Positions 1,577 to 39,895 of a DNA stretch of 40,351 bases are shown piece by piece (the stretch's first letter is position 1; every line of letters begins with the position of its first letter). Source of the stretch: a virus; IMG/VR virus record IMGVR_UViG_3300034061_001081, positions 1 through 40,351 of that record; one strand, written 5' to 3'. Below the pieces are notes generated by a model. It was not told the origin of the DNA. It did no database searches and saw only the letters and a program-made list of their open reading frames with translations. A program made the position numbers and the translations under genes.

Positions 1577-2563
1577 TTATTGCTCCTTCAAGAATTTCAT
1601 CCATTCTCCTTCCGCTGGATCAAACCATGACTTGTCGCCAAGGTCGATCAAGAGTTGGTGTTCTTGCACTTCTTCTGGCATTGAGCGGAGGACTTCGGAG
1701 TTGGAGAAGTTACCGACATTGAGGAGAAGGAAACGATGACTCATTGGCTTGTCACCCTTACCCTGCTCGCTACGCACTCGGTTCCTAACCTCAGTCGAGG
1801 ATAGCTTCTCTGTCTTCGCAGCATCAAGAAGTTCCTTTTGTTTCTTGGTGCTTTCATCCCCGAAGTTAGCGTTGCCGATCTCTCGGTAGACTGTGAATGG
1901 CAGCGTAGCGTCACGCATTTCTGCTGTGAATACACGGCAGGCGCGAGCGTAACCAGAGACTGTGCTGTAGCTCTTCTTGAAGTTGGAGCAGAGTTGGTTG
2001 ACTACATCTTCATGCCCCGCATTCTCCAAGGCTACCACCGAATCACCGATGATCCATTGTGCGCCCGACTCCAGAGTAAGACCGAAGGCAAATGCTGCTA
2101 CCCAATCCTTCATCTCTACCTTACCTTTAGGAACGCACTGAGTCATCCCCGATCCGATGTCGAACTTCTGAGTGAATGAGGATAGCTCTAATCCATCCTT
2201 CACACTCTCCACAAGGGCAAGGGATTCGTTGACTGGCTCTTCGATTGTAATATCAATCAATTCTTCAATATTTTCTGGCTCTTCTACTGCTGGCAAGGCG
2301 AGGCGTTCTTCTGCCATCTCCTCGGCCATGTCCAAGTCAGCGGACATCTTCTCATACATTTCCAGCATTTCATCTGGCGCATCGTCGCCAAGGTATTCGT
2401 TCTTCTGAAGTTTGCCCCATGCTTTCTTGATGTGGGCTTCAGTGATGTTGATACCCGGCCATTCGGTTTTAACGAACTCCCCCATGTGACGGAGGTAGGT
2501 TGACAGAGGGACAATGACTCCCTCTTGAGTTGGGCTGAACAATTCTAATTCTTTCTTTTTCAT
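1577..2563 (-). CDS. KorB/ParB-HTH-like DNA-binding protein
   Basis: 328 residues. Residues 1-125 are acidic and helical. Residues 165-267 look like the helix-turn-helix region of KorB/ParB-type proteins: a QWIIGDSVV..EN start, a candidate recognition helix around KKSYSTVSGYARACRVF (196-212), then LPFTVYREIG and a KQKELLDAAKTEKLSSTEVR (241-260) segment like the second helical part of ParB HTH domains. The N-terminal ParB nuclease/CTPase box (GERRxR) is not visible, so it is not a full ParB. It sits between the OB-like protein and the Acb2-like protein. By analogy with KorB of RK2 it could bind the dispersed palindrome; this is inference. It could instead be a replication initiator or primosome-type protein. 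Confidence 0.5.
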   Translation of the reverse strand: MKKKELELFSPTQEGVIVPLSTYLRHMGEFVKTEWPGINITEAHIKKAWGKLQKNEYLGDDAPDEMLEMYEKMSADLDMAEEMAEERLALPAVEEPENIEELIDITIEEPVNESLALVESVKDGLELSSFTQKFDIGSGMTQCVPKGKVEMKDWVAAFAFGLTLESGAQWIIGDSVVALENAGHEDVVNQLCSNFKKSYSTVSGYARACRVFTAEMRDATLPFTVYREIGNANFGDESTKKQKELLDAAKTEKLSSTEVRNRVRSEQGKGDKPMSHRFLLLNVGNFSNSEVLRSMPEEVQEHQLLIDLGDKSWFDPAEGEWMKFLKEQ

Positions 2564-2605: not shown

Positions 2606-3421
2606 TCAATATGGAATGTTGTCTTCGTCGTCGCCTATTGGAGCGTCGAGGTTGAAGTCTTCTGCTGCTTGCTCCACACACTTGGCGAATGGAGTTGTGA
2701 ACCCTTTCTCCAAGTAAAACTGGTAGAGTTTAGTGAGGGCAGGCTTACCGATCTCACCAAGTTTTTCACCCTTGTGTGATCCACTTGGAACAATAACAGA
2801 TGCCCAATCTTTGGGATCAAGTTTCGTTGGCTCTTCCACTTTTGGCTCTTCAACCTTTTCAGTTTTTGTGTAGTAGATGCCCTTTCGGTTGGTTTCAATG
2901 AAGACCGACGAGACATATGCCCGAAGAGTCTCTTCGTCATCCACCACATCCTTGTATGCGTGGCGCACAAGTGAGTCGATATACTGGTGCATCTCTACAA
3001 TATTGTCTATAGCCTTCAAGGGATTATCGGTTACGATAACCTTGGGTGCTGATGTAACACGGGCAGGCTCCTCGCTTGGTAAGTCAAACTCAACCTTACC
3101 AGTAGCTGTGACTTTGATGATGTCACGATCTACCTTGCCATTCTTACCTTCGTAAGTCTCATGCTCCAAGGATACTCCAGTCAGACCATGCTTTCCACGG
3201 ACTGAGGACAGGGTAACTACATTGCCTTTGATGCTTTGCTCCTGCGTATTGTTGAAGAACTTGAGTCCATAGGTTTGCCCGTCGATCTCGATGTCTCCAC
3301 CTTGGATGACAAACTCACCCTTCGGGCCGTTGAATGTCTTAGGTTCCCACAATTTAGTGACTTTGCCAGTCACTCGTTTGATGATGTCTTTCTGTTCGAT
3401 TCCTTCTAATTGGTTACTCAT
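2606..3421 (-). CDS. OB-fold-like protein, possible ssDNA-binding or recombination factor
   Basis: 271 residues. The first 115 residues are beta-rich with repeated short strands (VTGKVTKLWEPKTF, GEFVIQGGDIEIDGQTYGLKFF, NVVTLSSVRGKHGLTGVSLE), compatible with an OB fold. The middle is helical. The C-terminal 65 residues contain VIVPSGSHKGEKLGEI, like the PFGKHKGxxL segment of phage nuclease-associated domains. It lies next to a PD-(D/E)XK nuclease, so a role in recombination or replication is likely, but no named family was recognised with certainty. It starts 8 nt inside the upstream small gene and contains palindrome site 3. Confidence 0.6.
   Translation of the reverse strand: MSNQLEGIEQKDIIKRVTGKVTKLWEPKTFNGPKGEFVIQGGDIEIDGQTYGLKFFNNTQEQSIKGNVVTLSSVRGKHGLTGVSLEHETYEGKNGKVDRDIIKVTATGKVEFDLPSEEPARVTSAPKVIVTDNPLKAIDNIVEMHQYIDSLVRHAYKDVVDDEETLRAYVSSVFIETNRKGIYYTKTEKVEEPKVEEPTKLDPKDWASVIVPSGSHKGEKLGEIGKPALTKLYQFYLEKGFTTPFAKCVEQAAEDFNLDAPIGDDEDNIPY
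3025..3038 (-). repeat. Dispersed palindrome, site 3 (TAAC on - strand)
   Basis: TATCG-GTTA-CGATA (+) inside the OB-like gene, coding IVTD on the - strand. Flanking T and A extend it to 16 bp. Confidence 0.75.
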
Positions 3422-4731: not shown

Positions 4732-4759
4732 ATAGTATCAAAGTTCCGATAATCGTCAA
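4732..4759 (-). promoter_or_regulatory. Sigma-70-like promoter of the early operon
   Basis: On the - strand: TTGACG, 16 bp, TACTAT. The spacer holds TATCGGAAC, an intact left arm and centre of the dispersed palindrome, followed by TTTGATA (imperfect right arm). A binding protein for the palindrome could therefore act on this promoter. Confidence 0.7.
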
Positions 4760-4790: not shown

Positions 4791-4804
4791 TATCGGAAAC
4801 GATA
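4791..4804 (+). repeat. Dispersed palindrome, site 4 (GAAA on + strand)
   Basis: TATCG-GAAA-CGATA between the late-operon terminator and the early promoter. It is one of only two copies whose A-rich centre is on the strand opposite to neighbouring transcription. Confidence 0.85.
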
Positions 4805-4840
4805 AAAGAAAACGCACCCCAGATTTCTCCGAGGTGCGTT
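4805..4840 (-). terminator. Terminator of the late operon
   Basis: GGTGCGTT (4833-4840) pairs with AACGCACC (4811-4818). Reading on the - strand the stem is followed by TTTTCTTTTATC. It lies 55 bp after the stop of the giant virion gene, and palindrome site 4 begins in its T-rich tail. Confidence 0.75.
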
Positions 4841-4894
4841 CCCTAATGAATAACACGAAACAGCAACAAGCTGCGCAGGTAGACTACATCAGCC

Positions 4895-7800
4895 TCACTC
4901 AATGTCAAGTGGGATTTCCAACCTATCTTGTAGGTCTTCCTTCACCTCTCTACGGATGATACGAATCTCTGTGCTGAGTAGGTCTTGAGCTTCATCAAGT
5001 GGTAACTCATCTAACTCGTCTGATATCTCAGTAATCCTCTCCCGCATTATTGGCCCTGCTTCTCGGACGAACTGCAACTCCTGCTCCTTGGTCATTCTCT
5101 TCCCATTATCCCATGACAGACTTGCATCCCATGCTGGAGGTGTAAGGTTGTTTCTATACAGAACCTCCCATGCAGGGTCTGGTTGCTCAGTAGAAACAAT
5201 ACGACCAACAACACTTGCCAAGCGTCTTCCGAATCCAGACTCTTGCACAGCAGATGGGAACTTGGCATCATCACCAAAGTAGTTCACATCCTTGTTCAAG
5301 AAGTTCACTGATCCGGGCATATCCTTGAAGAAGTTTGAAAGGTAATCTCCACCCACCGCCTTGTCTTCTGTGTAGACTTTGTTGATGTCTCGGAATGCAC
5401 CCGGAACTAACATACGGGATATGATTCCTCCTACAAACTGCGTTCCTTTTTCAACTGGGTTTTGAGATTCTTTGAACTCCAGTAAGTCAGCAAGACCAGT
5501 AAGGAATGATTGGTTGAGAACCGCAACGAATCCAATAGAGAATGGTGCTGTTATTGCAGAAGCCACAAGTTTACCGATGTCTTCAGCTTGAACTTTTTCA
5601 CCCTTCTTCTTCATCGATTTAAGTTCTTCTTGCAACATGGCTCCACTCGCCAACGGAATAACAAGGGGAGTGTAGAGGTATGAGTAGTATGTATCACCAA
5701 CTCTGATTGAATATTTCTGACCTCCCCGCTGCTGCCAGATTTTCTTTTGTCGCGGGTCTTTTGGGCCTTCAGCATAGAACTGAATGTATGGACGCTCTTC
5801 TTGATCCTCTTCATCTCCACCTGTGAGTGCTTGGATAATAAATGGAGCAAGCATAGCGGCTATACCAATCATGCCCTTGATTCCTATCTCATACTCCTTA
5901 TCTGCCCTTCCTTGCGTGAATGGGTCTTTCATCCCACTCTGCTTTGCTCTAATCAATCTGTATTGAGAGAATATTGGAGTGTAGTTAAGAAACTCGTTCG
6001 TCACATTCGCCACAACATTTGTGAATGGGATTACAAATTTAGTTGCTGGATACTTGGCAAGGAGTCCGTTCACAAAGTTAGCAAGCATACCAAATAAGCC
6101 TTGCGGGTCTTGGTTGAATGCAGTTTCAAGTGATGCTTGCTCTGCGATAGCCCTCTTCTCCTCTTCCTTCAATCTCTGCTCACGATAGATTTCATTTGCA
6201 CGGATTATGATCTCTTGGTCTTTCTGTTTGCCTGTAGCCTGCGATGATGCCAACTCCAACTCAGCTTGACGCTTTGCCATGTCAAACCCTTCCCTTGTAA
6301 AATCCGCTGCTCCAAGTTGTGCTGCTTTCGCTTCGTATGCTGCTTCCCTCAAGAACATATCAGTTGCTCGGAGTATTCTCATCAACTGCCTTGGGTTAAC
6401 ATTCTTCAATGCTGTGTTCATCCAATCGGGGAGGAAGTTAATCTTCCCGTCACCAAAATTGGTAAGGTAGTAAACAATCTTAGGAACATTTTCTGGGGTA
6501 GCACCCTCAAGAACATTCGTCTTGGGATACTTAGCCCTCTTCTCATCCTGCATACCAGATGGGTTTAATCCGTTACGCATTACATACAGAAATGAATTCA
6601 CCGCTGGAGACTGCTTACCAGACACCGCAGAATACAATGCCCTCATCATTGGAATGATGGTTTTAGGATTGTATGATGCCCATGTAGCCACATTAAACAT
6701 GAGGTTAAATCCACCAGACAATGCGTTAATCGCAGAGGTGGATACTTGTGAGATAAGTGAAAAATACCAATAGCTTGCAAGAATATCGCCAGTAGTGAAC
6801 TTAGATTTGTTCATCAATGCCCGACCCATCTTCTCTTCTTCGATGCTACGGATAACTCCCGCTGGCAGTTTAGAAATCCTGTCACCCCACTCACGGATGG
6901 TATTTGCAAACTCAGCATCGTATGGCATGAAACCTTTAGGGAAGTCATGGGTTTGTCTGAATGCTTCGTAGACCATCTCCGAATCCAATACATTCATGTT
7001 TGCCATCTCAATCAACTTCTGAAGGATGGTGCGCTGATTGGCCTTTGGTTTTATCTTGTTATCGTCTAATATTTTTTGGGCTGTCTTGATAGCGGCATCC
7101 ACGTTCTCGCTTCTCTGCGCCAGCATTGCCTTCTCCATTTGCTTAGAGATTAGATCAGCTAACTCGGTAGCGTTCTGCTTATCCATTCCAACTTCAGTAA
7201 TGATCCTGCTGATCAAGTTTTGTTTGAAGTTACCATAATCACTCGTCGATAGCTTTGAGATGTCTTTAAGGTTCTTGATTGCTTTGAACTGAGCTTCAGC
7301 CTCCTCTTGAATCTTAGCCGACATGAGAGGCTTTGGCATTACCTTGCCTGTCTTCTCATCGATACGGAATCCAAGTTTGTCTTGTAGGATTTCATTGGTC
7401 TGCTCATTCAGATACTTGTCTGTATCTTGGATGAACTTCTCGATCAGTTCATTCGATGCGCCAGTTCCTTGAAGTTCAGTGCGGATATGCTGCTTGACTG
7501 CTTCTTGTGTTACATCTCTCTGTGATCCAAGGTAGGTGAATAGATCATTGAACTTATAGTCCAAGAAGTCTGCTGAGTCTTTGATAGCCTGTGTCCTTAA
7601 CTTGTCTGCCCATTCATTTGAACGGAGTGCCTTGAAGAGTTCCGCGAAGTCAGCATCGAATGCATCTCTACTCTGATACTTCTCTGCCATCCGGTTTGCC
7701 AGATCGTTCAAGAAGGATTTGTAAGCATTATCGTTTCCGATAACTGCCTTCACCATCTCCAAGTATTTTCCACTACGCTTGCCTGCCTTCTGCTTTTCAA

Positions 7801-10800
7801 TCCCAGCTTGCTGGATTCCCATCTGTTTCGCGGCAGCAGCGAAGGACTGATACATGAACTTAGTGACATTATCGATGGAGAATTCCTTCTTGTTCATTCC
7901 AATCGAAAGGATGTTCTGAACAGTCTGGTCTACCACCATGTTGGCATACTTGTCTTCTTTGGTGTCGAAGAGTCCCGCTGCAAAGTCCAAAAGAATCTGG
8001 CGGGTTGAGTCGGTTTGCTTTTTAGAAACTTCAGCGCGGATTGATTGACGAACCTTCTCTGGATTCCTCTGCGCCATCTTAATCAAGGACGCCGCTTTTC
8101 GGAATACTTCTTGAGTATTGAAGACCTTATCCATCGACTTGCGCCGATCACCTCGGATGGCATTAGCTACTTCATTGAATGATGATCTTGTAACTGCTGA
8201 CAGATTACCCATCGAGGCAATGATGTTTCTCTTGTAGGTATCGATAGCCATTCCTGCACCGACAAGTTTACGGAGAGCAGCGGCAGCTTGAACCATTCTT
8301 CCACTCTCACGCAGGGTAAGAGCTATGTTACGAGCCAATCCCGCTTCTACATCGATAGATTCCAAAGCAAAAGACTCACGGGCAGTTGCCTTCATGTTGG
8401 AGTCCATCACTTCTTTTCTGTAAACAGAAGAGAGTTCATACATCATCTCCATCAATACCAATCTTTCGTATGGAGAAATGTTATATGCTCTCTGTGCGGT
8501 AGCCTCATCCATTCCTGCTAAGTTCTGAGCAACACTAAAGAAGTCAGCGTCTGGATTGTTTCTGAAAATCTTATCCAATGCATTGTTTGCTGCCGTGAAG
8601 GAGTTTGATGTGAATAGATTCGCTGCGATTGAGAACGGAGAAAGTAATGCCTTATTCCACTTCTTATCCTTCTGTGCAGCGCGGGACTGATACGCAGTGT
8701 ATGCCTTGTTATCCTTTGGCTTGAGCATTTCTGCTTGAGCTTCCAAGTCAGAGATCATTCTTGTTGTGATCTTCTGCATCACAGTCTGACTCTTCTTGGA
8801 CATTGGTTCACCTTCTGGAGTTACACCAGCACGGGCGATGATTGGTGAGGTAACATCGAATCTTTGAGAGAGGGGGATTACATTGCCCTGCTCATCGTAA
8901 GTTACTGGGTCTGCGGCAAATCTGCCTTCCAAATCTTTTAGATCGACTCCAAGTTTATTTACTTTGCCGTTTTCTCGTTCAATTATTTGTAAGGCTTTTC
9001 CTCCTGTAAATTCATTTGTTGAATCAATCTCGAAAGAGTCGTCACTGCCAGTATAAAATCGGTTTGCACTATCTGAGAAAATATAATTTTCGCGTTCTCC
9101 CCACATTTGCTTGTCTGAAAGCTGCCAATATATATTTGCTTTATATTCAACCCTCTTCGCTATTTTTTCATCCAAGTTTTGCAACTCATTATTAGATAAC
9201 GAAGAAAGGTAAATAAATACTTTTTTCCCCCGCACAATACCCGCAATCTTCGCCGCCTCATCCACCAACCTCTGTGCAGTCTCCATGTCTCCACTCTCAA
9301 CCGCTGCAAGGTAGTCGGCATCCATCTGTGGAGTTACGCCTGCCTTCGCTTCGATTGCTGGAGTTATCGTTTCCGATACTGCAACTTGTCCACCAGCTTC
9401 TGGGAGTGCGACAGTTTGGTCAGTAGGGAAAACTTCCCTGCGTTTTGAGGCTTTGATTTGTTTGTATTCTGGATTGCTTTCATAAGATGTTATGTCTTGA
9501 TCTATCAATAGATATGGTTCTGCTAAAGATTGTTTCTGTTCATCAGATATTGGTAGTCCATCGATGATCCTCAATGCCGTATCGATTTGGCGATTTGCCA
9601 ATTCAATTTGTTTTGGAGTAATCTGAGAATAAAACTCTGGAGTTTGGGAAACTTTCTGTTTCCTCTTTCCATCTTTGACTATCTTTGACTCACCAGTATT
9701 AAGAACTTCAGCGATATAATTAAGCACTTGGGATTTCTCAATCTCAACTAACGCCTGTGGAACTTGGAAGTCATCTTGCTCTGCGTTAACTTCTTCCTCT
9801 GAAATTTGTGGATCAGATTCAATTATCGCCGCTACTTCTGTGGTAGCTGGTTCTGCTGGAATATTGCGGGTCTGTCCCTTACGAACCCATTCGATGCCAC
9901 TAATTTCGGATATGTTTTGGTTTGGATTTACAGGAACTTGATACTTATTGTTTGTTCCAAACTCACGGAATACAACAGTGCCATCCTCAAGTGAGATTGC
10001 CCCGCGCATTCCCTCAAAGACAAAAGTATCTTTGTCTTTAATCGCATCCGATATTGTTCTGTCTGGTAATGCTGGTTGAACTGATAAGGATTCTTTAGCA
10101 GTTGACTCTGCTTTAGAGTAATCTTTAAACTCGTAGTTAGCCTCACCCTTCACGATACCATACCCATCGAGGATGCTGTTGATGGTATCTTCCATCTTCT
10201 TAACTTCCTTAGTCGAGGTTCCTTTGCCGAGGTAGCGAGTGATAGAGTTACGAGCGAACTGAAGCGCGTTAAGGATGGAGTTCTTCCATGCTATGATAAG
10301 ACCTTTATCTTTGTCAGAGAATGCTTCTTTCTCTGCTGCTCTGATAGCATTCAAGTCTTCGGTGATCTGACCCGTCCTTACACGCTGGATGACCATCCGC
10401 ATGAACTCTTGAGAGAAGGTAAGGTCATCAAGGAGTTTTGTTTTATCGTTTAGATATGCGTTGGATACCCCCGGCAGTGCATTTGGATTCGTGCGCTTTA
10501 CTTCTCTGGCTATATCGGATATTCGCTTTGCAACATAGTCCTGCTCTGTGAGTTTAGGATTCTTGATACCTTTATACTCGTCTTGGATTCCTTGGAACAT
10601 GGAGATATGGATCATCTCCTCTTCCAGTTTCTTTGCTGTAGCCCGTGACTCTTGATCTAATGCGGCATCTCTCGTAGCTACCTGCTGCTCACCTTCGATT
10701 GATATTCCTGCCAACTGATTGATATTTGGAACTACCAAATACTTTTTACCATTAAGGAACACTGCTCGGTATGTGCCAGTATCGGCGGCTACTTGCTTTC

Positions 10801-13201
10801 CACCTGTCAGCTTGGCGTATTCTTCGCTTGAGATGACCTCTGTATTCGTTCCAGCCAAGAACCCTGCATTTGATACGATTCCAGTTCTGATCGCATTCTT
10901 GAGCTTCTGCGCCCGTTTGCTGGTAGCTTGAATTGCTCCTACTACTTTATCCATAGTAGAAATGAATCCTTGAATTGCAGGTTTATTAACCTTTCCAGCT
11001 ACACTTGGTTGACGGGTTGGCGTTGTTCCCTGTGGCTCGATGCCCTGCTCAATAGCGGTAAGTTCAGCCAGTTTATTCTGCTCAACTGCGATAGCTTCGT
11101 TCACCCTATTGATCCCTGCTTGGTCGTTCTCATCCAAAGCGTCGAATTCTGTGTTGAGTTCATCGATCTTTGCTATCGTTGTTTCTTTGGTAGCGGTGGG
11201 TGTTGCGGCTGGAGTTTCTGTTTTAACTTCTGCTGGGCCAGCGGAGAGTTTATCGAATTGGGTCTGTAATTGCGCGAGGTTGGTCTTCTTCTCGTTCAAT
11301 GCCAGTTCAGCTGCTTGGTATTCTGGCGCGGTTTTCTCAATTGCCTGTATCCCCATCTCGTCGTTAGCAATCTCTTCTTTAAGATTGTCTATCTCTCCGC
11401 TCACAGCAGTCATTTGTTGCGCCAGATCAGATACTGCGTCTGGAGCTAACTGTTCAGCCATAGCATCTGCTTTGGAATCAATATCAGTTTCCTCTGATCC
11501 TTCTTGATCACCATTTATCGCTTGGGTCTTTGCTTTCCTACCAGCAAGCATCTGCGTAAAGATGGATGTAATTACACCGGATGCTCCACCCACACCACCA
11601 GCGTATAAAGTCCCATCAAAGATGTCTTGGTTCGGATCGTAGACATACTTCTTAACGAGGTTGCCTGCGATCTGCTGTGGCATTTCATTGAACAACGCTT
11701 CTTGTGCGCCTTCAGCAACTGCTTGCGCGGCTTTGTTTAGACCTTTGTAAATTCTTGTTTGTTGCGCTCCATCAAATCTGCTTATCCACTTTTGAAGTGG
11801 CGATACCAATTCCAATGGTGCTTGAGTTAGAGCAGAGAAGAGTGCCGCCTGCTTTGCTTGGTCATCAGTAGCCCCATCTGCTTTTGCTTCGGAGTATCCT
11901 GCCCATGCACTATTCAATCCAGAAAAGGTAAGTGTATTTGCTTTCTGGAATAGATCGATTGTTCTGGCAGAGTTCAATCCAAGTGATGCGCGAGCAGTAT
12001 TTCCCAATACACCAGTTACAATCGCAGCACCGCTGAATCCAAGCCCACTGGATACATCTCTACCAAACTGAGCTACCGCTCCAACCCTTCTTGGGTCTTG
12101 ACCTTGTTGTCTTTGTTGGTCTGCATACTCGGCGGCTTCTACCAATGATTGACCTGCTTGCTCATATCCAGCTTCTTTCAAGAGCATACCGACTGGGCCG
12201 ACAGTTCCAGACCCAATAGCTCCAGCGTATCCATCCCATGCTCGCTTAAAAATATCTCCAGCCAAATCCATGAAGTCGGGAGATGTCATCGCCCATTCTT
12301 CTGCGAGCTTTCTTACTTCTGGATTCTGTTTTAGTTGTTCAACTTTATCTGGTGCTTCACCAATATTCAGATACTGACCAGCAATGCGCGACATCATTCC
12401 GGGCGCATCGATTCCTTTGGTTTTGATGTAGTCCAAGAATTTATCGTTTCCGATAATGTTATCTATGAACTGACGCTGATCTCCAACTCTCTTAATCGCC
12501 GCTCCAGTCCTTGTTTGAATTGGAACAGTTGTGATTTCACCCTCTGCTCCAGTAACCCTCTCTTCTCCCAATCCAGTTTCTATATCTACAGAAACTCCCG
12601 GCTTACGGGTAATCAACTTACTCAAGAAGCTGAGTTGATTTGCCTCATGCTTCTGTTGCTCTTGCTGTAGCTTTGAGAGTTCTGAGCGTAGAGTATTGGA
12701 CTTATTGATATACTCAGAGTATGGAAGACCAGAAGCAGACTGAAGTTCCTTAGTCTTTTCCTTGATAAGATTACCTCGGAAATCCAGCGTCATTCCATCT
12801 GGGCTAATTGGTTCTTCAATTATCTTACCACCAATATCAATTGCTTGGGCGCGACGAACCTCTATAGGTTTGCCTGCCTCGTCCTCCATGAAAGTCTTGG
12901 TTTGCCCTTGTTCTTGAGCTAAGATATCTGGCCCGCCTACCATAGGTTCTCCACCAATAGGAAGACCCTTACCTTGATTGATAGCTTCTGGAATTTGGCG
13001 AAGATTTTGAACTTGCTCTTGTTCGGCAATACTCTGAGCCATTGGCCCAGTAGAATAAAATTCAGCTACATCATTTAGCGTATAGCCAGACTTAATTGCA
13101 TCTCCAATTTTTGGGTTCTGCTCTGAAGCTACTGACAAAATCTCTTCGTCAGAATACCCAGCCTCCCTCGCCCTTTTTAGTTTTTCAAGAGTAAAAGCCA
13201 T
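4895..13201 (-). CDS. Giant internal virion protein (polyvalent, gp16-like position)
   Basis: 2768 residues. It is the last gene of the late block, after two smaller internal-virion-like genes, which is the position of the DNA-ejection protein gp16 in T7-like phages. Hydrophobic stretches occur near residues 385-400, 545-560, 2140-2175, 2445-2470 and 2540-2570, separated by long coiled-coil or Gln/Lys/Glu-rich helices (for example 580-720). A YLAAVESGDMETAQRLVDEA segment (near 1300) is typical of large polyvalent phage proteins, and LEEEMIHI near 865 recalls a degenerate zinc-peptidase helix. No lysozyme or transglycosylase domain was recognised. Residues about 1323-1421 are encoded by an AT-rich insert. 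It probably enters the cell with the DNA; detailed activities are unknown. Confidence 0.75.
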   Translation of the reverse strand: MAFTLEKLKRAREAGYSDEEILSVASEQNPKIGDAIKSGYTLNDVAEFYSTGPMAQSIAEQEQVQNLRQIPEAINQGKGLPIGGEPMVGGPDILAQEQGQTKTFMEDEAGKPIEVRRAQAIDIGGKIIEEPISPDGMTLDFRGNLIKEKTKELQSASGLPYSEYINKSNTLRSELSKLQQEQQKHEANQLSFLSKLITRKPGVSVDIETGLGEERVTGAEGEITTVPIQTRTGAAIKRVGDQRQFIDNIIGNDKFLDYIKTKGIDAPGMMSRIAGQYLNIGEAPDKVEQLKQNPEVRKLAEEWAMTSPDFMDLAGDIFKRAWDGYAGAIGSGTVGPVGMLLKEAGYEQAGQSLVEAAEYADQQRQQGQDPRRVGAVAQFGRDVSSGLGFSGAAIVTGVLGNTARASLGLNSARTIDLFQKANTLTFSGLNSAWAGYSEAKADGATDDQAKQAALFSALTQAPLELVSPLQKWISRFDGAQQTRIYKGLNKAAQAVAEGAQEALFNEMPQQIAGNLVKKYVYDPNQDIFDGTLYAGGVGGASGVITSIFTQMLAGRKAKTQAINGDQEGSEETDIDSKADAMAEQLAPDAVSDLAQQMTAVSGEIDNLKEEIANDEMGIQAIEKTAPEYQAAELALNEKKTNLAQLQTQFDKLSAGPAEVKTETPAATPTATKETTIAKIDELNTEFDALDENDQAGINRVNEAIAVEQNKLAELTAIEQGIEPQGTTPTRQPSVAGKVNKPAIQGFISTMDKVVGAIQATSKRAQKLKNAIRTGIVSNAGFLAGTNTEVISSEEYAKLTGGKQVAADTGTYRAVFLNGKKYLVVPNINQLAGISIEGEQQVATRDAALDQESRATAKKLEEEMIHISMFQGIQDEYKGIKNPKLTEQDYVAKRISDIAREVKRTNPNALPGVSNAYLNDKTKLLDDLTFSQEFMRMVIQRVRTGQITEDLNAIRAAEKEAFSDKDKGLIIAWKNSILNALQFARNSITRYLGKGTSTKEVKKMEDTINSILDGYGIVKGEANYEFKDYSKAESTAKESLSVQPALPDRTISDAIKDKDTFVFEGMRGAISLEDGTVVFREFGTNNKYQVPVNPNQNISEISGIEWVRKGQTRNIPAEPATTEVAAIIESDPQISEEEVNAEQDDFQVPQALVEIEKSQVLNYIAEVLNTGESKIVKDGKRKQKVSQTPEFYSQITPKQIELANRQIDTALRIIDGLPISDEQKQSLAEPYLLIDQDITSYESNPEYKQIKASKRREVFPTDQTVALPEAGGQVAVSETITPAIEAKAGVTPQMDADYLAAVESGDMETAQRLVDEAAKIAGIVRGKKVFIYLSSLSNNELQNLDEKIAKRVEYKANIYWQLSDKQMWGERENYIFSDSANRFYTGSDDSFEIDSTNEFTGGKALQIIERENGKVNKLGVDLKDLEGRFAADPVTYDEQGNVIPLSQRFDVTSPIIARAGVTPEGEPMSKKSQTVMQKITTRMISDLEAQAEMLKPKDNKAYTAYQSRAAQKDKKWNKALLSPFSIAANLFTSNSFTAANNALDKIFRNNPDADFFSVAQNLAGMDEATAQRAYNISPYERLVLMEMMYELSSVYRKEVMDSNMKATARESFALESIDVEAGLARNIALTLRESGRMVQAAAALRKLVGAGMAIDTYKRNIIASMGNLSAVTRSSFNEVANAIRGDRRKSMDKVFNTQEVFRKAASLIKMAQRNPEKVRQSIRAEVSKKQTDSTRQILLDFAAGLFDTKEDKYANMVVDQTVQNILSIGMNKKEFSIDNVTKFMYQSFAAAAKQMGIQQAGIEKQKAGKRSGKYLEMVKAVIGNDNAYKSFLNDLANRMAEKYQSRDAFDADFAELFKALRSNEWADKLRTQAIKDSADFLDYKFNDLFTYLGSQRDVTQEAVKQHIRTELQGTGASNELIEKFIQDTDKYLNEQTNEILQDKLGFRIDEKTGKVMPKPLMSAKIQEEAEAQFKAIKNLKDISKLSTSDYGNFKQNLISRIITEVGMDKQNATELADLISKQMEKAMLAQRSENVDAAIKTAQKILDDNKIKPKANQRTILQKLIEMANMNVLDSEMVYEAFRQTHDFPKGFMPYDAEFANTIREWGDRISKLPAGVIRSIEEEKMGRALMNKSKFTTGDILASYWYFSLISQVSTSAINALSGGFNLMFNVATWASYNPKTIIPMMRALYSAVSGKQSPAVNSFLYVMRNGLNPSGMQDEKRAKYPKTNVLEGATPENVPKIVYYLTNFGDGKINFLPDWMNTALKNVNPRQLMRILRATDMFLREAAYEAKAAQLGAADFTREGFDMAKRQAELELASSQATGKQKDQEIIIRANEIYREQRLKEEEKRAIAEQASLETAFNQDPQGLFGMLANFVNGLLAKYPATKFVIPFTNVVANVTNEFLNYTPIFSQYRLIRAKQSGMKDPFTQGRADKEYEIGIKGMIGIAAMLAPFIIQALTGGDEEDQEERPYIQFYAEGPKDPRQKKIWQQRGGQKYSIRVGDTYYSYLYTPLVIPLASGAMLQEELKSMKKKGEKVQAEDIGKLVASAITAPFSIGFVAVLNQSFLTGLADLLEFKESQNPVEKGTQFVGGIISRMLVPGAFRDINKVYTEDKAVGGDYLSNFFKDMPGSVNFLNKDVNYFGDDAKFPSAVQESGFGRRLASVVGRIVSTEQPDPAWEVLYRNNLTPPAWDASLSWDNGKRMTKEQELQFVREAGPIMRERITEISDELDELPLDEAQDLLSTEIRIIRREVKEDLQDRLEIPLDIE
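7729..7742 (-). repeat. Dispersed palindrome, site 5 (GAAA on - strand)
   Basis: TATCG-TTTC-CGATA (+) inside the giant gene, coding VIGNDN on the - strand. Confidence 0.75.
8935..9235 (-). other. AT-rich insert within the giant gene
   Basis: Counting 8941-9240 gives 105 G+C in 300 bases (35%), against 47-57% in lines just outside (8641-8700, 9241-9300). The reading frame is intact. The encoded block (about residues 1323-1421, with FIYLSSLSNNELQNLDEKIA and aromatic residues) looks unlike the helical flanks and is probably an exchanged domain. Confidence 0.55.
9365..9378 (-). repeat. Dispersed palindrome, site 6 (GAAA on - strand)
   Basis: TATCG-TTTC-CGATA (+) inside the giant gene. Here it codes VSETIT, a different reading frame from sites 5 and 7, so the base sequence is kept while the peptide is not. 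Confidence 0.8.
12442..12455 (-). repeat. Dispersed palindrome, site 7 (GAAA on - strand)
   Basis: TATCG-TTTC-CGATA (+) near the 5' end of the giant gene, coding IIGNDK. Confidence 0.75.
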
Positions 13202-17060: not shown

Positions 17061-17074
17061 TATCGTTTCCGATA
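17061..17074 (-). repeat. Dispersed palindrome, site 8 (GAAA on - strand)
   Basis: TATCG-TTTC-CGATA (+) filling the 21-bp gap between the 52-residue gene and the gp11-like gene, 6 nt before the start codon of the latter. In RNA it gives a UUAUCG/CGAUAA stem with a GAAA loop. Confidence 0.9.
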
Positions 17075-17747: not shown

Positions 17748-19592
17748 TTAATTTACAATATTGTAATTCCAATATTTTTCTTGGCAACACAAAAATGGTT
17801 CGCATTCTTGATTTTCTTCGGGGCAGTCACCAACTGGAGAATCATCGTTGTTCTTGATGTTTGCCATCAACCTTACTCGGTCAACTGTAGCCGCTCCAGT
17901 TAGGTTGACTTTAATCTGGAACTCGCTTCCTTCTACTGATGGGATACCTGCCAAGTCATTACACTCGCTTGGGTCTGGTGTATTAAACTTGTAGCGTTTG
18001 TAGCGATTACCTCCTCGTTGCGGGAAGCATTCGGTTACTTGCGGCGAGCATGGGTCACACCCGAATGTTGTAGGCACTTTCAGTTCTGACCAGCACGGAT
18101 TAGAATCGGCGCGGAACTCGGCTGAACTTTGAACTTCACCCTTAATCTCACTCATCCACATTTCTCCACCAGTAATCTTTTTACGTAGGAACTTGTTGGT
18201 AGCCCCGCTTCGGTTGAAGTCATACCTACCAGTTGTGAAGAAAGATTCAATTTGTCTACTTCCATTCGGGCCGTAGTCATCGCCTTGAGCTATGGTGAAC
18301 TCGTAAAGTCGGTTCTTATTGTCTGCGTCAAACGAGAATCCAAACCCACGCTTCTCACCTTGGATCAGTGCAGTGAGCAGTTGAGTTGGTCTGATGCCTG
18401 TCCAGATTCCATTCCAGCGGAATTGAAGTTGCGCATCCGGTGCTGGTGACGAAGATTGATCAAGGTCGAGAACTACCATTCCCCGATGATACCTATTCAA
18501 GCCTTCTGCATTTGTTGCTCTATAGGTCTGTGGAGATACAGTGCTGATAAGGTAGTTATCAAAGAACATCGTAGAAGCGAATTGCTTCAGCCAAGGAGTA
18601 TCATTTGATACCCATTTGTTTACTTCCCTTGAAAGTTTACGGAGTGAGAAGTATCGCGCAAATTCAGACTGGCTATTGGAGTAGAATGCCCAACCATCGT
18701 GTGACCTAAACCAAAGCTCAGAGTTAGCTAATCCTAAGTATGGTGATACACATCCACGCCCAAGGAGAGAGATGCGCTGGATGTTTGAAGTATTCCATTC
18801 TGACCTTGGAAGAGAGACATCCATTGAGAATGCTCCGTTGCCAGTTAGGATTACAAGCTCACCTTGTCCACGAAGGTTAGTTCCAATCTGTGGCATGACT
18901 CTCATGCCAGTGATATTCCCCATCATTGCAGGAGTAGAGAATGCACCGCCTTCTGCCCAGTATCCTATCTCAGTAAAGTTCTCCGTATTTTTTGTATCTG
19001 TGAATCCGTTTCCGTAGATAATATCCGAAGCGTAGATTTGGTTGAACCTATCAGATACAAAGACTCGCCCGAAAGCATACTCCATGATCGTGCCAATCGG
19101 CATTTGCTGCTTAAATGGATTGAGCCTGTATGCTGGAGTATTAAGGTCACCATCCCATGCTATGGCATTCTGGTAGCCATTCTGGATATAAACTCTATCT
19201 TCTGCCTGCACGAACCATGTGTGCATCATGCCCGGATCGTTGCCATCGATAAGTTTGTAAGCAGTTGCAAAGTTGTTTATGATCTTTAGAAAGTAAATAA
19301 CGCCAGATACAGACAATAATATCCCATCAGCGGATTCATATTTTGTTTTTCGATATGGATATGCCCCTTGAAAGTTACCATTCTGAATATCGTTAACGAT
19401 AGTCTCTGATTGACCTTCTCCAACTTTGATTGGAATATTCCGAATGCTTGGTCTGGTTCTGTTGATGCCACCTCGGAATGTCCTATTTACAGATTCTGAT
19501 ACAAAAGACTCTGGCAAATACGATGGATGCGTATCAGCGTCTTGCGCGACGATACTTGTGAATCCATCAAAGATTGATCCTTCTGCTGGCAT
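17748..19592 (-). CDS. Tail nozzle / DNA-stabilisation-like protein (gp12-like)
   Basis: 614 residues, beta-rich with repeated blade-like strands (GRVFVSDRFNQIYASDIIYG, GELVILTGNGAFSMDV, SELWFRSHDGWAFY), as in propeller-type nozzle proteins of podoviruses. The N-terminus (GSIFDGFTSIVAQDADTHPS) also fits such proteins. The C-terminus is unusually Cys-rich (FGCDPCSPQVTECFPQ, CPEENQECEPFLCCQEKYW). It sits between the gp11-like gene and the fibre cluster, expected for the tail-tip protein. Palindrome site 9 lies inside. Assignment is from fold pattern and position. Confidence 0.65.
   Translation of the reverse strand: MPAEGSIFDGFTSIVAQDADTHPSYLPESFVSESVNRTFRGGINRTRPSIRNIPIKVGEGQSETIVNDIQNGNFQGAYPYRKTKYESADGILLSVSGVIYFLKIINNFATAYKLIDGNDPGMMHTWFVQAEDRVYIQNGYQNAIAWDGDLNTPAYRLNPFKQQMPIGTIMEYAFGRVFVSDRFNQIYASDIIYGNGFTDTKNTENFTEIGYWAEGGAFSTPAMMGNITGMRVMPQIGTNLRGQGELVILTGNGAFSMDVSLPRSEWNTSNIQRISLLGRGCVSPYLGLANSELWFRSHDGWAFYSNSQSEFARYFSLRKLSREVNKWVSNDTPWLKQFASTMFFDNYLISTVSPQTYRATNAEGLNRYHRGMVVLDLDQSSSPAPDAQLQFRWNGIWTGIRPTQLLTALIQGEKRGFGFSFDADNKNRLYEFTIAQGDDYGPNGSRQIESFFTTGRYDFNRSGATNKFLRKKITGGEMWMSEIKGEVQSSAEFRADSNPCWSELKVPTTFGCDPCSPQVTECFPQRGGNRYKRYKFNTPDPSECNDLAGIPSVEGSEFQIKVNLTGAATVDRVRLMANIKNNDDSPVGDCPEENQECEPFLCCQEKYWNYNIVN
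19388..19401. repeat. Dispersed palindrome, site 9 (TTAA)
   Basis: TATCG-TTAA-CGATA, a perfect 14-bp palindrome inside the nozzle-like gene, coding TIVNDI on the - strand. Confidence 0.75.
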
Positions 19593-21943: not shown

Positions 21944-22363
21944 CTAAGCAAGAATTATTTTTTTGATCGTGCTTCCCTTAGGTTCTGTAACATGACCATT
22001 ATCCCAAATTATTTTTCCTTTGCCAATATGTGTTCCTTTGCTGTTAGGGTTGTCTCTACGCGAGACTCGTATTCCTTCGGCGGGGGGCCATTTTATCGTT
22101 AACGATACTTTCTCTTTAGCAAGTTTTTCTTTTTGAGTAGGTCGATAACCAAATACAGTAACTTTTCTTTTCAGTTCATCGTTCCAATAGGTGATAGCTT
22201 TTTTTTCTACTTGACCACCTTTAATGGCAGATGACAATTGTTCAGCTACTCTTTCGGAACTGCACTCCAATTGTTCAGCGATGGTTTCACGAGTATCCCA
22301 TCCACTCGGCCATTTGTAATGCTCTTTATTATGAGCTTCTACTATTTTGTTCCAGTTTGCCAT
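21944..22363 (-). CDS. Small winged-helix-like DNA-binding protein
   Basis: 139 residues. Residues about 20-50 (WDTRETIAEQLECSSERVAEQL) look like a helix-turn-helix, followed by strands (VEKKAITYWNDELKRKVTVF) like a wing. The C-terminal half is basic and ends in GHVTEPKGSTIKKI. It follows the metallophosphoesterase by 3 bp, and palindrome site 10 lies inside. It is out of place among fibre genes, so a regulatory or accessory role is likely; its target is unknown. Confidence 0.55.
   Translation of the reverse strand: MANWNKIVEAHNKEHYKWPSGWDTRETIAEQLECSSERVAEQLSSAIKGGQVEKKAITYWNDELKRKVTVFGYRPTQKEKLAKEKVSLTIKWPPAEGIRVSRRDNPNSKGTHIGKGKIIWDNGHVTEPKGSTIKKIILA
22094..22107. repeat. Dispersed palindrome, site 10 (TTAA)
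   Basis: TATCG-TTAA-CGATA inside the small DNA-binding gene, coding VSLTIK on the - strand, the same alternative frame as site 6. Confidence 0.75.
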
Positions 22364-23379: not shown

Positions 23380-23393
23380 TATCGTTTACGATA
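23380..23393 (-). repeat. Dispersed palindrome, site 11 (TAAA on - strand)
   Basis: TATCG-TTTA-CGATA (+) 8 nt before the metallophosphoesterase ATG. A TTGACT lies upstream on the - strand with 17 nt between it and AACGAT within the site, so the site could lie over a weak promoter core. Confidence 0.9.
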
Positions 23394-24667: not shown

Positions 24668-24681
24668 TATCGTTAACGATA
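24668..24681. repeat. Dispersed palindrome, site 12 (TTAA)
   Basis: TATCG-TTAA-CGATA 5 nt before the start of the beta-helix fibre gene. TTGACC lies 17 nt upstream of the AACGAT in the site (- strand), the same layout as site 11. Confidence 0.9.
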
Positions 24682-26082: not shown

Positions 26083-26096
26083 TATCGTTTACGATA
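26083..26096 (-). repeat. Dispersed palindrome, site 13 (TAAA on - strand)
   Basis: TATCG-TTTA-CGATA (+). On the - strand the site ends immediately before the ATG of the Gly-rich fibre and overlaps the last codons and stop of the endolysin-like gene (stop at 26089-26091). Confidence 0.9.
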
Positions 26097-27387: not shown

Positions 27388-29511
27388 TTATGTTCCGTAA
27401 GTTACTTCTACTGCGTCAACGCTCGCTACCCACCGCCATGTTTCAGAAGTGATACCAGTAACCAAGATGCGAAGTGTGTCATCGGCGTTATTTGCAGAAA
27501 GCGCAATCGTTGTTCCTGCGGCATTATCGGTTCCGATAGTTACTGGAGCGTAAACTTGTGAAGAGGTTCCACCGACATTCTTCACGCAATATTGGCGAAG
27601 ATAGTGAGCAACAGCAGTTCCATCTGATTTGCTTCCAGTAATGTTAATTGTGCAAGCGATGATCTTTCCAGATGGAATTCCAAGATATGTCGTTGCGCCA
27701 TCCAACGCCATTTCAACTCCAGTATTGGTGGTAGTTTTGCAACGAAGGACGAAGCGGGCGCGTTGGGCTTGCCCACTGCCAGAAGTGTTGTTTGGCCCAA
27801 AACTGCCATTTGCATGGGCTTGCATTCCGTAACGATCTACAGTGGCTTGCCGACCTCCTAATATCGATGCCAGTTGTGTGTTACAAACATTCCAATATCC
27901 TCCGGCAATAACTCCTGCATCTGCGCCTGTAATTGAATTTTCTACTCCAGCACCAAGAAAAGCTGATGAAGACAAACTTGCAATTGCGTTTGTATTACCA
28001 GAAACAATACAGGCTCTTGGCGAGTTTGTAATTGAATTTGAACTTCCGCTTCCGATAAACGCATTTGAATTTATACTACCGCCAACAATGGAATTTGCAT
28101 TCCCTCCAACAATAGCAGAGTTTGAATTGTTAGCAGATGTTACGGAATTAGAAGTCCCTGCTCCGACAAAATTTTGCGAATCTGATGCAGTATTATTGAT
28201 TCCTCCACAAATTACAGAATTTGCACCGCTTGCAACTTGTGTTGCTGCTGTGCGTGAAAGTTGTAAATCAACTGCCCTCGATCCCCTCGCATTTCCACCT
28301 GTGGCAGTTCCGTCTGGTTTAGGCCCAGCAATAAAAGCTCCCGTGCCTTTCGGCGTGAGGACAAGTGCGGAGTTGGTTTGTCCAGAATGTTGATTGGTGA
28401 TGGCAACATTGGCTTGTGTCGTTACTGTAGCGTCATCAATATTTAGGTCACTATTTTGCAGTGTTGCTCCACCAGTGCCATCTGCGCGGAGGATAGCATT
28501 ATCAACAGCACCAGTTGTAATTGTTGCCGTGTTTGTCAATGTTCCAGCAGAAAGCGACAACCCAGTTCCAACTGTAATTTCTTCAACTGCTCCAGTTCCA
28601 GCAGTAGTCCTGCCAAGTATTCGCGCAGTGGCTTGAGATAGTTTGCTTACCGCAATCGCAGCAGTTGGAGAAACATCAGCGTTTACAATGGTAGTGGCGG
28701 GGCTTTGGAATACTCCATTAACTACTTTAACAACACCAGTTCCTGTGACGGATGGTATGGTGCTGTGGGTGTGCGATGGGTAGTTTCCGCCAAAATGAAA
28801 AGTAAGACGATTATTGTTTTGATGCGCCCGTCCGTATAGGTAAACAACGATTCGATCAGTCGAAAGAATTGTTGTCTGCGGCATCACTACAGATGCAATG
28901 TATTGGTTAATCTCTGCTGGATCGTAGATGTAAGTATCGTTTGATGTCGCAAGAAGAGTTGGCGCATTCGTTCCATCATATTTCAAAATCTCAATTTTGA
29001 AATAAATTTGATTTGCAGAATTTGTAGTTGTTGATTCTACAAAAATATTGAAATCCCAAATGCCAGCAGGAATTGCAGTGGAGGATGGATTGCTAACATC
29101 CGTTACAAAAGAGGCAAGGAAGTCGTAGCTTCCAGTAGAAAGAATTGGAGAAAGATAGCTTGTCGCAGTTACATCTCCAATAATTCCGAGTTCCTTGGAT
29201 GCGTTAGGAGTTTGCGGGATGTTTGTTAGTGGGGTATCTGCTGCCGTGTTGAAGTTGAGATAATAAACAACTCCACCGCCACCAGACCCTCCCGATGGAA
29301 TGCTGCCCGGAACCCAGTTCGTTCCATCATATTGTAAGACTTGTCCATTGACTGGAGTGGCATTGGATACTGGCCTGCCCTGTAATCCATCTACTGTGGG
29401 ATTTGGATATGTCCCAGCCAAGTCTCCACCAGCGGGGCCAGCGGGCGATCCTCCTCCTGCTAATCCTGCAATATCAAGTTTTCCAGTAAATGGATTGAAT
29501 TTGAAAGCCAT
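27388..29511 (-). CDS. Tail fibre with YadA-head-like repeats
   Basis: 707 residues. It begins with MAFKFNPFTGKLDIAGL and Gly/Pro repeats, then QVLQYDGTNWVPGS (a fibre motif), a beta domain, Thr/Gly shaft repeats (about 270-400), and at about 430-537 a series of NSVxxG/NAxxG-type hexads (GANSVICGGINNTASDSQNF, NSNSAIVGGNANSIVGG) like the left-handed beta-roll of trimeric autotransporter heads. A globular C-terminal domain follows. It is probably a trimeric adhesin. Palindrome site 14 lies within it. It is the first fibre gene after the capsid block. Confidence 0.75.
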   Translation of the reverse strand: MAFKFNPFTGKLDIAGLAGGGSPAGPAGGDLAGTYPNPTVDGLQGRPVSNATPVNGQVLQYDGTNWVPGSIPSGGSGGGGVVYYLNFNTAADTPLTNIPQTPNASKELGIIGDVTATSYLSPILSTGSYDFLASFVTDVSNPSSTAIPAGIWDFNIFVESTTTNSANQIYFKIEILKYDGTNAPTLLATSNDTYIYDPAEINQYIASVVMPQTTILSTDRIVVYLYGRAHQNNNRLTFHFGGNYPSHTHSTIPSVTGTGVVKVVNGVFQSPATTIVNADVSPTAAIAVSKLSQATARILGRTTAGTGAVEEITVGTGLSLSAGTLTNTATITTGAVDNAILRADGTGGATLQNSDLNIDDATVTTQANVAITNQHSGQTNSALVLTPKGTGAFIAGPKPDGTATGGNARGSRAVDLQLSRTAATQVASGANSVICGGINNTASDSQNFVGAGTSNSVTSANNSNSAIVGGNANSIVGGSINSNAFIGSGSSNSITNSPRACIVSGNTNAIASLSSSAFLGAGVENSITGADAGVIAGGYWNVCNTQLASILGGRQATVDRYGMQAHANGSFGPNNTSGSGQAQRARFVLRCKTTTNTGVEMALDGATTYLGIPSGKIIACTINITGSKSDGTAVAHYLRQYCVKNVGGTSSQVYAPVTIGTDNAAGTTIALSANNADDTLRILVTGITSETWRWVASVDAVEVTYGT
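27525..27538 (-). repeat. Dispersed palindrome, site 14 (GAAC on - strand)
   Basis: TATCG-GTTC-CGATA (+) inside the YadA-like fibre gene, coding TIGTDN. It is the only copy with this centre. Confidence 0.7.
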
Positions 29512-29786: not shown

Positions 29787-29800
29787 TATCGGTTACGATA
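29787..29800 (-). repeat. Dispersed palindrome, site 15 (TAAC on - strand)
   Basis: TATCG-GTTA-CGATA (+) in the 22-bp gap between two small genes, 7 nt before an ATG. It is extended by T/A flanks to 16 bp. Confidence 0.9.
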
Positions 29801-30794: not shown

Positions 30795-32204
30795 TTAGGA
30801 AGGCACAACGATGTCACCCACACCAGCGCAGCTATAGCAGTCCTGATTGTTCTCAGGAACGATGTAGCTCTGAACCTCGCAGCAGGAACCGTAGAGGCTC
30901 TTGCTCTTAGGCAGGCGATGCAGGAACGAGTGCATGATGGTTGGGTCTTTGACCTGTGCGGCCAGACGGAACTGGGCTTGATAGAAGCCCGTTTTGCGCC
31001 AGCGGTTGCACTCCCAATCTGGGTTCTTCCATTCCCAATCACCAGCGTAGTTCTGGGTCATTTGTTGGGCTTGGCCGTATCCAGTCGAGGATGGCATTGT
31101 CCACTTGCACATTGCTTTGTTCACCATAGCAACCGAGATACCGAAGTCGGCATTGCGGTAGGCTTTGTTAGGAACATAGGAGCATCCGTTTTCTTGGACG
31201 ATCTTGATGTAACGAGGCACACGAACGAGACGCGCCCATGTCGCAGGATCAGCTTCGTTGAACGGAGCAAGACCAGCGTTGAAGGCAGTGTCAGCATTGA
31301 AGCGAGCAGCGTTGATGTCGTAGCCGAAGGCGTAGTCACCGATGATGCGGTTGATGCCGAGTTTCAGACGGGTCAAACGCTCGTCGAAGTCGGTGTTAGC
31401 ATCCCAGTAACCATTGTTGCGCTTGGCTTGGAAGTAAAGCGCACGGCCAACTTGAGGATCGGGGATAACGATGTCGAGCAAAGGCTGACCAGTCGCATCT
31501 TGGAGATCAAGACGGAAAGCGTCATCTTCGTCTTGGAGGTCAACGAGAGCATCGTCGAGCATATCAAGCGAGAGATAAGCAATCTTGTTGAGGTCGGCGG
31601 GAGCCATCTTAACGCGAAGAGCGCAGAGATCGTAGCCAGCTTCATTGTTGAGCGTATGCTCTGGAACGAACCATGCTTGATCGTCAACGAGTCCACAGTA
31701 AGTGCCGTCATCAGTAGTGATGCCCATCCACTTGTGGCCGGAACCACCGATGTAGTTGGAACGAAGGAACTCTTCGTGTACATTCTTGGTGATACGGGCA
31801 TTCGACTCTTCAAACTGAAGAATCTCTTCAGCAGGGAAGAGGCGATAGAGAAGGCTCTCAACGCAAATCCAGTCAGTGGTCATCTCTTTACGGAGAAGCT
31901 CGAAAGTGTAGCTCTCTGTTCCGGGACGTTGGATGACTTCGGGTTTGCTATCGCAAGAATCAGTCTCGCAGTAGGTGTCGGTGATCGAACGGAAAGGAGT
32001 GCAAGGATCGTGGAATCCACGGCCAAAGCGGAATGCTTTTTGTTCGGTTGTGTGGTTAAGGGGCCATGCTTGCTCCTCGAAACGGGTGAAGTATGCAGAG
32101 TTCGTGACGAGCTTCTTCACATAGAGGTCGTTGAAATATTCGCGGCCCTCGCGGAAGAAACTGTCAATCTCGGCACAACTATTGAAGTAGAGTTGATCGC
32201 TCAT
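30795..32204 (-). CDS. Major capsid protein (probable)
   Basis: 469 residues from the ATG at 32202-32204. The longer reading adds MRCKTKTKPKSNKS, which is unlike a protein start, and the chosen ATG follows an A-rich leader (AAATCAAATAAATCA). The protein lies directly after a scaffold-like gene and has its own promoter, as expected for the most abundant virion protein. It has beta-rich and acidic helical stretches (LDMLDDALVDLQDEDDAFRL) and a Cys-rich C-terminus (SLYGSCCEVQ, DCYSCAG). I recognise it by position and size, not by a fold signature. Paired cysteines near the C-terminus might cross-link subunits. Confidence 0.7.
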   Translation of the reverse strand: MSDQLYFNSCAEIDSFFREGREYFNDLYVKKLVTNSAYFTRFEEQAWPLNHTTEQKAFRFGRGFHDPCTPFRSITDTYCETDSCDSKPEVIQRPGTESYTFELLRKEMTTDWICVESLLYRLFPAEEILQFEESNARITKNVHEEFLRSNYIGGSGHKWMGITTDDGTYCGLVDDQAWFVPEHTLNNEAGYDLCALRVKMAPADLNKIAYLSLDMLDDALVDLQDEDDAFRLDLQDATGQPLLDIVIPDPQVGRALYFQAKRNNGYWDANTDFDERLTRLKLGINRIIGDYAFGYDINAARFNADTAFNAGLAPFNEADPATWARLVRVPRYIKIVQENGCSYVPNKAYRNADFGISVAMVNKAMCKWTMPSSTGYGQAQQMTQNYAGDWEWKNPDWECNRWRKTGFYQAQFRLAAQVKDPTIMHSFLHRLPKSKSLYGSCCEVQSYIVPENNQDCYSCAGVGDIVVPS

Positions 32205-32382
32205 TGATTTATTTGATTTTGGTTTAGTTTTAGTTTTGCACCGCAAACTACACCATGAGGAATAGCAAGCGAGTGCTTGGTTTCCTCTGCTGGACTCAAC
32301 CCAGAGTTTCTTCTGTCCAGAAATCGTTTTTCATGCGAGGTCGAAAACTCGCCAGCCAGAGTGCGGCTGAATCCCTAATGAT

Positions 32383-32396
32383 TATCGTAAACGATA
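32383..32396 (+). repeat. Dispersed palindrome, site 16 (TAAA on + strand)
   Basis: TATCG-TAAA-CGATA about 17-30 bp downstream of the predicted capsid transcription start. Its A-rich centre is on the strand opposite to transcription, as at site 4, while 13 others follow transcription. Confidence 0.9.
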
Positions 32397-33816: not shown

Positions 33817-34062
33817 TTAGATTTCGTCGAGGTCTGGATCGATTGTGATGTCCGCTGGCTCTTTATGCTTTCCAGCAAGTTTTGTTTTTTTGAATGCTCC
33901 TTGCTCCTCAGTTCCAATAGCTTCAATAGTTTTGATTGCATGGATAAGCGTGGTTACTCCTTCTGGTGGGTTTACATTAAGTAGTAAATACGCCTGTAGT
34001 TTGTTCCAGTCTTCGTGTGAGGTTATTGCCGCGCATAGGGATTTTACTTTTTCTGTTGTCAT
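33817..34062 (-). CDS. Small hypothetical protein between portal and scaffold
   Basis: 81 residues, helical, with a charged C-terminus (KEPADITIDPDLDEI). No family recognised. It starts within the portal stop (ATGA overlap) and ends 3 bp before the scaffold gene, so it is translated with the head-assembly set. It may be a scaffold or portal cofactor. Confidence 0.65.
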   Translation of the reverse strand: MTTEKVKSLCAAITSHEDWNKLQAYLLLNVNPPEGVTTLIHAIKTIEAIGTEEQGAFKKTKLAGKHKEPADITIDPDLDEI

Positions 34063-36534: not shown

Positions 36535-36548
36535 TATCGGTTACGATA
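36535..36548 (-). repeat. Dispersed palindrome, site 17 (TAAC on - strand)
   Basis: TATCG-GTTA-CGATA (+) 7 nt before the portal ATG, overlapping the stop codon region (36541) of the upstream 125-residue gene. Confidence 0.9.
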
Positions 36549-36933: not shown

Positions 36934-36961
36934 AAAATATATTTTCTTATTGATATGTCAA
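36934..36961 (-). promoter_or_regulatory. Sigma-70-like promoter of the portal operon
   Basis: On the - strand TTGACA (36956-36961), 16 bp, TATTTT (36934-36939). The -35 box overlaps the start codon of the divergent terminase gene (ATG 36955-36957), so the two transcription units compete for the same bases. Confidence 0.65.
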
Positions 36962-39315: not shown

Positions 39316-39616
39316 AAATTAAATAATTGTTCTCTCTGGCCCATGCAGGATTGTCGTGGATTTTATTATGGCAGGGACGGCAAACCGCCATGAATGTTGC
39401 CATGTTGCAAAGGTTCTTACCTCGCTTTGCCTTATGATGAATGTCAGTAGCTGGACAACCGCACACTTCACAATTCGGTTTAAGGTTGAAATAAAGTGTC
39501 CGTGCCACTTTATACTTTTCATTCTCTTCACGCTTGCGGTCACTAAATACCTTTAGTTTTCCTCCGCGCTTTTTGAAACCCGTTTTTGCTTTAAGTGGGG
39601 TTTTTCTTCGTAGCAT
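39296..39616 (-). CDS. HNH endonuclease
   Basis: 106 residues. The start MLRRKTPLKAKTGFKKRG is typical of small phage HNH proteins. CEVCGC (Cys49, Cys52) and CRPCH (Cys79, Cys82) are the zinc pairs; TDIHHKAKRG (His60, His61) and the downstream NKIH (His87) form the beta-beta-alpha-metal site. Such enzymes can nick DNA in packaging or spread as homing nucleases. Here it lies within an XRE operon, not next to a terminase start. It overlaps the XRE gene by 64 nt in another frame. Confidence 0.8.
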   Translation of the reverse strand: MLRRKTPLKAKTGFKKRGGKLKVFSDRKREENEKYKVARTLYFNLKPNCEVCGCPATDIHHKAKRGKNLCNMATFMAVCRPCHNKIHDNPAWARENNYLIYEYKHV

Positions 39617-39866: not shown

Positions 39867-39895
39867 AAAATAAACCAAGAGTATTGACAAGTCAA
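39867..39895 (-). promoter_or_regulatory. Promoter of the XRE operon
   Basis: On the - strand TTGACT, 17 bp, TATTTT. Its -35 hexamer abuts the -35 of the opposite promoter. The -10 is 2 nt from the first ATG of the XRE gene, so the message would be leaderless or start at the second ATG (39858). Confidence 0.65.

Follow-up and report, generated by a model that had tools for sequence, protein, structure and literature searches.

A ParB/Noc-fold protein without a CTPase domain as candidate binder of a dispersed palindrome in a group of uncultured phages

Gene content of the window and its dispersed palindrome

The window, i.e. the whole stretch of DNA that was analysed, is the 40,351-nt IMG/VR virus record IMGVR_UViG_3300034061_001081 and carries a podovirus-like gene set. 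With genes called mechanically as open reading frames starting at ATG, it holds a terminase-like gene (36955-38805), a portal-like gene (34059-36527), a putative major capsid gene (30795-32246) and genes for a 2768-aa protein, an exonuclease (PHROG 2139) and a helicase, besides the gene at 1577-2563 that is at the centre of this analysis. The phage group is uncultured but widespread. Among INPHARED phages no relative was found of the terminase, the ParB-like protein, a small XRE-type helix-turn-helix (HTH) protein of the window or the ParB-like homologue of the distant contig G046 described below; in bacterial genomes no relative was found, and searches with the portal and the ParB-like protein for relatives beyond the clade returned clade members only. 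No match to a tyrosine integrase or resolvase was obtained in 10 records including the window, the records being possibly incomplete. A DnaB-like helicase and an O-like protein were recognised by eye in the group and suggest that replication proceeds through the host machinery.

The earlier note had described a palindrome at 19 dispersed places. This arrangement is real, with 19 copies of TATCGNNNNCGATA in the window and none of the reversed pattern that served as control. When up to three mismatches were allowed, TATCGGAAACGATA gave 36 strand-hits in the window versus 2.6 expected. TTATCGTTAACGATAA and TATCGGAAACGATA are forms of the dispersed palindrome. From 542 perfect sites in 26 genomes, an extended consensus of approximately (A)TTATCG-K-W-W-M-CGATAA(T) was derived. 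Its partly free 4-bp centre is not known from parS or the Noc site, which counts against the proposed ParB-type binder. All 45 related records with the ParB-fold gene hold between 10 and 32 TATCGNNNNCGATA sites (control 0-1). A literature search found no description of the palindrome in the sense of a dispersed site and returned one unrelated match.

Many of the sites lie within genes. They are found in the helicase gene (316-329), in gene 2606-3421 (3025-3038), three times in the gene of the 2768-aa protein (7729-7742, 9365-9378 and 12442-12455), in a 614-aa gene (19388-19401, shared by all relatives whose homologue aligned at that place), in gene 21944-22363 (22094-22107), in gene 27388-29511 (27525-27538) and at codon 582 of the terminase gene (38694-38707, present in 22 of 26 genomes). 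Others precede start codons, such as those at 17061-17074 (start codon 6 bp downstream, site present in nearly all relatives), 23380-23393 (start 23371), 24668-24681 (start 24662), 26083-26096 (immediately ahead of start 26082), 29787-29800 (start 29779) and 36535-36548 (ahead of the portal-like gene). Further copies lie between the ends of two convergent genes (1271-1284), in the promoter region of the operon of the ParB-fold gene (4791-4804), in the gap preceding the putative major capsid gene (32383-32396) and right behind the stop codon of gene 39915-40289 (40291-40304). Noncoding DNA makes up 6% of the sequence yet contains 38% of the sites.

Site positions are kept at homologous places in 25 relatives, in-gene sites included, and homologous sites stay in place even where protein identity has fallen to about 50%. 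At two in-gene sites, third codon positions within the arms were conserved at 1.00 and 0.97, compared with 0.58 and 0.61 outside, and such near-invariant bases amid variable surrounding codons indicate that selection acts on the DNA itself. The central 4 bp differ among genomes at one given position, whereas the arms stay constant. Spacing of the sites in the window is more even than random (CV 0.44 vs 0.93, P = 1e-4), and each of seven relatives analysed likewise showed even spacing (P = 5e-5 to 0.011).

The ParB-fold protein and its operon promoter

The gene proposed in the earlier note at 1577-2563 does exist. It lies on the minus strand, starts with ATG and encodes 328 aa, and the plus strand is full of stops there. 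Sequence searches against Pfam, PHROGs and PDB, run with the protein and with its alignment, assigned no family. The ParB HTH profile PF17762 did not match in ten phages, nor did the ParB-CTPase profile PF02195 (0/10 phage genomes), and both matched in control genomes. The earlier claim that an N-terminal CTPase box is absent was thereby confirmed, and with PF02195 unmatched, a CTP switch as in Noc was not found. No ParA partner was seen by eye among the translated genes.

In structure prediction, the full-length model reached a pLDDT of 79.5 and a model of residues 120-328 a pLDDT of 85.7 with a pTM of 0.70; both had Noc as the best PDB match. Foldseek matches of the core were led by Noc (7nfu with E 8e-3 and probability 1.00, 7ng0, 6y93, 7ol9), followed by ParB and SopB, and these three proteins account for nearly all of its first eleven PDB matches. 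For 6y93, a Noc domain on its DNA site, the TM score was 0.67 by target length. The match of the whole fold was moderate (best E 8e-3, TM 0.42 to a longer Noc construct), so that the scores assign a fold but do not demonstrate shared ancestry.

By prediction, residues 120-328 adopt the fold of the Noc/ParB DNA-binding domain. The model places a helical DNA-binding domain at residues 151-269 (1757-2113, minus strand), where conservation along the protein is highest (stretch 124-232), and within this domain an HTH of helices 185-194 and 199-211 (1931-2011, minus strand) with the recognition-helix motif S-Y-S/P-T-V-S. Both helices appear in two structure predictions and bear out the proposal of an HTH within residues 165-267. 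High conservation of this domain is expected for a protein tied to about 20 sites. As modelled, the protein would consist of an N-terminal segment of its own, a ParB/Noc-type HTH domain and a C-terminal beta domain. The description as KorB/ParB-like stands by predicted fold, a ParB/Noc-type HTH with Noc, ParB and SopB as best PDB matches, but not by sequence, where no ParB or KorB profile matched. A second protein with a region resembling a ParB-type HTH by eye (253 aa, L185, at 29154-29915 of the relative G007) is present in one other among six genomes compared.

The ParB-fold gene belongs to an operon (4724-1286) that is preceded by a sigma70-like promoter on the minus strand (4732-4759), consisting of TTGACG, a 16-bp spacer and TACTAT with TG before the -10. 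A half-site ATTATCGG at 4746-4753 lies between the -35 and -10 hexamers, as had been noted earlier; the accompanying statement that no copy lies right before the gene needs a correction, as the full site at 4791-4804 sits 31 bp upstream of the -35 of this promoter. The same layout of terminator, palindrome, A-rich stretch, TTGAC, about 17 bp and a -10-like hexamer was found in 20 of 21 genomes. The terminator-like element of the window (4807-4844) is a strong hairpin of intrinsic-terminator type between the gene of the 2768-aa protein and the early operon; it directly adjoins the palindrome and is similar in relatives.

Linking the protein to the sites

Inside the clade, the ParB-fold gene and the sites co-occur completely, and no relative among the 45 records keeps the gene without the sites. 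Such co-occurrence is weak evidence for a link, because all core and universal genes co-occur with the sites there. The contig G046 (48.8 kb, a single contig and possibly incomplete) also has both and is very distant: its terminase is 32% identical over 225 aa, its portal 23%, and most of its other genes were unmatched. It was reached by an exact-site scan of viral contigs, among the matches listed, and not via the gene. G046 contains nine perfect sites (control 0), which are not evenly spaced (P 0.61), and a 226-aa homologue of the ParB-fold protein (E 1.3e-20, 26% identity) that lacks the first 120 residues. This homologue keeps the recognition-helix motif as SYSTVS and shows weak HTH matches at the place of the recognition helix; no further relatives of it were found in the viral collection.

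The proposed link between protein and sites rests on G046, on the predicted fold and on the exclusion of the XRE-type protein. Beyond co-occurrence in the clade, three results would make this link, namely G046, a separate palindrome in the XRE promoter and the conserved operon promoter of the ParB-fold gene. The earlier suggestion of the ParB-like protein as candidate binder gained support from its fold, from the gene-site co-occurrence and from the separate site of its rival. The 328-aa protein is the best-supported candidate binder of the palindromes, and we infer physical binding from sequence comparison and modelling.

Probably, the CTPase-less ParB-fold protein binds the palindromes as a dispersed-operator system, comparable to KorB on RK2 or to stoperators, that serves promoter regulation, in-gene roadblocks and/or genome organisation. 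The protein would bind the 14-18 bp palindrome as a dimer. At promoters, the bound protein would regulate transcription, including that of its own operon, and within genes it may block stray transcription and/or organise the phage genome. As no CTPase domain was found, sliding clamps of the KorB or Noc type are not expected, and the action of each site is probably local or mediated by bridging.

The sites occur in three settings. In the first, the site lies upstream of the -35 with TTGAC at an offset of +24 to +45, and in the second, TTGAC precedes the site by 16 bp and the -10 position falls within the site; both suggest promoter control. In the third, the site lies inside a gene and far from promoters, which suggests roadblocks or genome organisation. 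The second setting is seen at 23380 and 24668, where TTGAC precedes the palindrome by 16 bp and an ATG follows 5-8 bp downstream, and relatives are similar. Of 114 genes whose start is closely preceded by a site, none had a Shine-Dalgarno-like motif, compared with 116 of 1116 others. Leaderless mRNAs are conceivable at such sites, the -10 then lying within the palindrome.

It is conceivable, though somewhat doubtful, that the protein, bound to the sites, serves only to organise the genome, in the manner of Noc- or MatP-like condensation or positioning of phage DNA, and does not regulate transcription. The even spacing, the fixed places of sites inside long genes and the top fold match to Noc are in line with such a role, whereas the enrichment in noncoding DNA and the fixed offsets of some sites to TTGAC promoter elements argue against it. 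A regulator, or a regulator that is also an organiser, was ranked slightly ahead.

Another possible binder is the small XRE-type HTH protein (39553-39864, minus strand), which might occupy the dispersed palindromes in the manner of 434-type repressors. XRE-type proteins often bind 5-4-5 palindromes, and the site with its loose centre resembles 434-type operators. The HTH of the protein is conserved, and a homologue was present in 35 of 45 records, with most of the others short or cut. However, the XRE gene has a different, operator-like palindrome, TTGACNNGTCAA (39884-39895), in its own promoter, overlapping the -35 and present as one single copy in each of 23 among 27 genomes. The four genomes without it, G046 among them, are those in which no XRE gene was located, and G046 has the dispersed sites with no XRE homologue found. 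A scan for XRE relatives did not discriminate, as the matches listed were near relatives. By its position and distribution, TTGACNNGTCAA is likely an autoregulatory operator of the XRE protein, and binding of the dispersed sites by this protein is improbable.

It is similarly unlikely that a host protein binds the sites and that the phages keep these sites so as to exploit or evade that protein. That the same site is common to two very different phages would fit this idea, but the ParB-fold gene is also common to both phage groups. Moreover, TTATCGTTAACGATAA in bacterial genomes is scattered over many phyla among the matches listed, and 115 of 119 fetched bacterial stretches, again among the matches listed, had one site only. 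A role of the palindrome in translation control or RNA processing, as a hairpin in RNA (stem UAUCG/CGAUA, GNRA-like loop), has very little likelihood and was rejected: the coding strand within genes does favour GAAA and related centres (47 vs 11 positions in two oriented classes), the same bias holds just ahead of start codons (9 vs 0 families) and many sites lie 0-8 bp upstream of ATG, but other intergenic sites are unbiased (7 vs 9 families), the conserved sites ahead of the ParB-fold operon and the putative capsid gene would give UUUC or UUUA loops, and the stems are fixed with no compensatory changes at homologous places.

Comparison with known systems and significance

A few plasmids and temperate phages are known to use dispersed-operator systems. 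With KorB, the proposed binder shares a ParB-superfamily-type HTH and operators dispersed over the replicon, here 10-32 sites per record, but it lacks a CTPase domain, has another site and matches no ParB or KorB profile. KorB of plasmid RK2 is a CTPase sliding clamp that acts at promoters and at a distance (PMC11790492). Noc is the best fold match (7nfu, 7ng0, 6y93) and likewise has many sites over one replicon; it requires a CTP switch for spreading and membrane binding (PMC8429893), whereas the phage protein has other N- and C-terminal parts, a different palindrome and no CTPase domain. The HTH region matched the DNA-binding domains of SopB and plasmid ParB (3mkz) more weakly. SopB and plasmid ParB bind centromeres, where their sites are clustered, and have ParA as partner.

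In layout, the nearest phage system is that of the stoperators in cluster A mycobacteriophages, whose genomes can contain some 30 short repressor sites, mostly off promoters (PMC6550527). Stoperators belong to temperate phages, have predominantly one orientation relative to transcription and a motif that diverges between phages (PMC6550527). In contrast, the present site is a palindrome whose arms hardly vary, and a search of 10 possibly incomplete records gave neither a tyrosine nor a serine integrase. A single orientation was not observed either, as the arms are palindromic and the centre is biased only in genes and before starts. A survey of the ParB-CTPase fold from 2025 searched by the CTPase domain (PMC12704722) and would therefore miss proteins like the 328-aa protein.

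Tentatively, and with rather more doubt than is attached to the binding itself, these phages may form a non-integrating lineage that marks its whole genome with 10-32 evenly spaced palindromes bound by a CTPase-less ParB/Noc-fold protein, and so possess a viral system for nucleoid organisation or genome silencing that is unlike any described. If the protein does bind the palindromes, the phages would have a genome-wide mark-and-bind system of their own, in which one pair of site and protein is kept down to a relative with about 26% protein identity and in-gene sites are under selection. It would also offer a clean and testable case of a ParB-type DNA-binding domain working without a CTP clamp. 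The sites, the protein and the operon promoter together would give a handle on genome-wide control in phages without an obvious lysogeny module.
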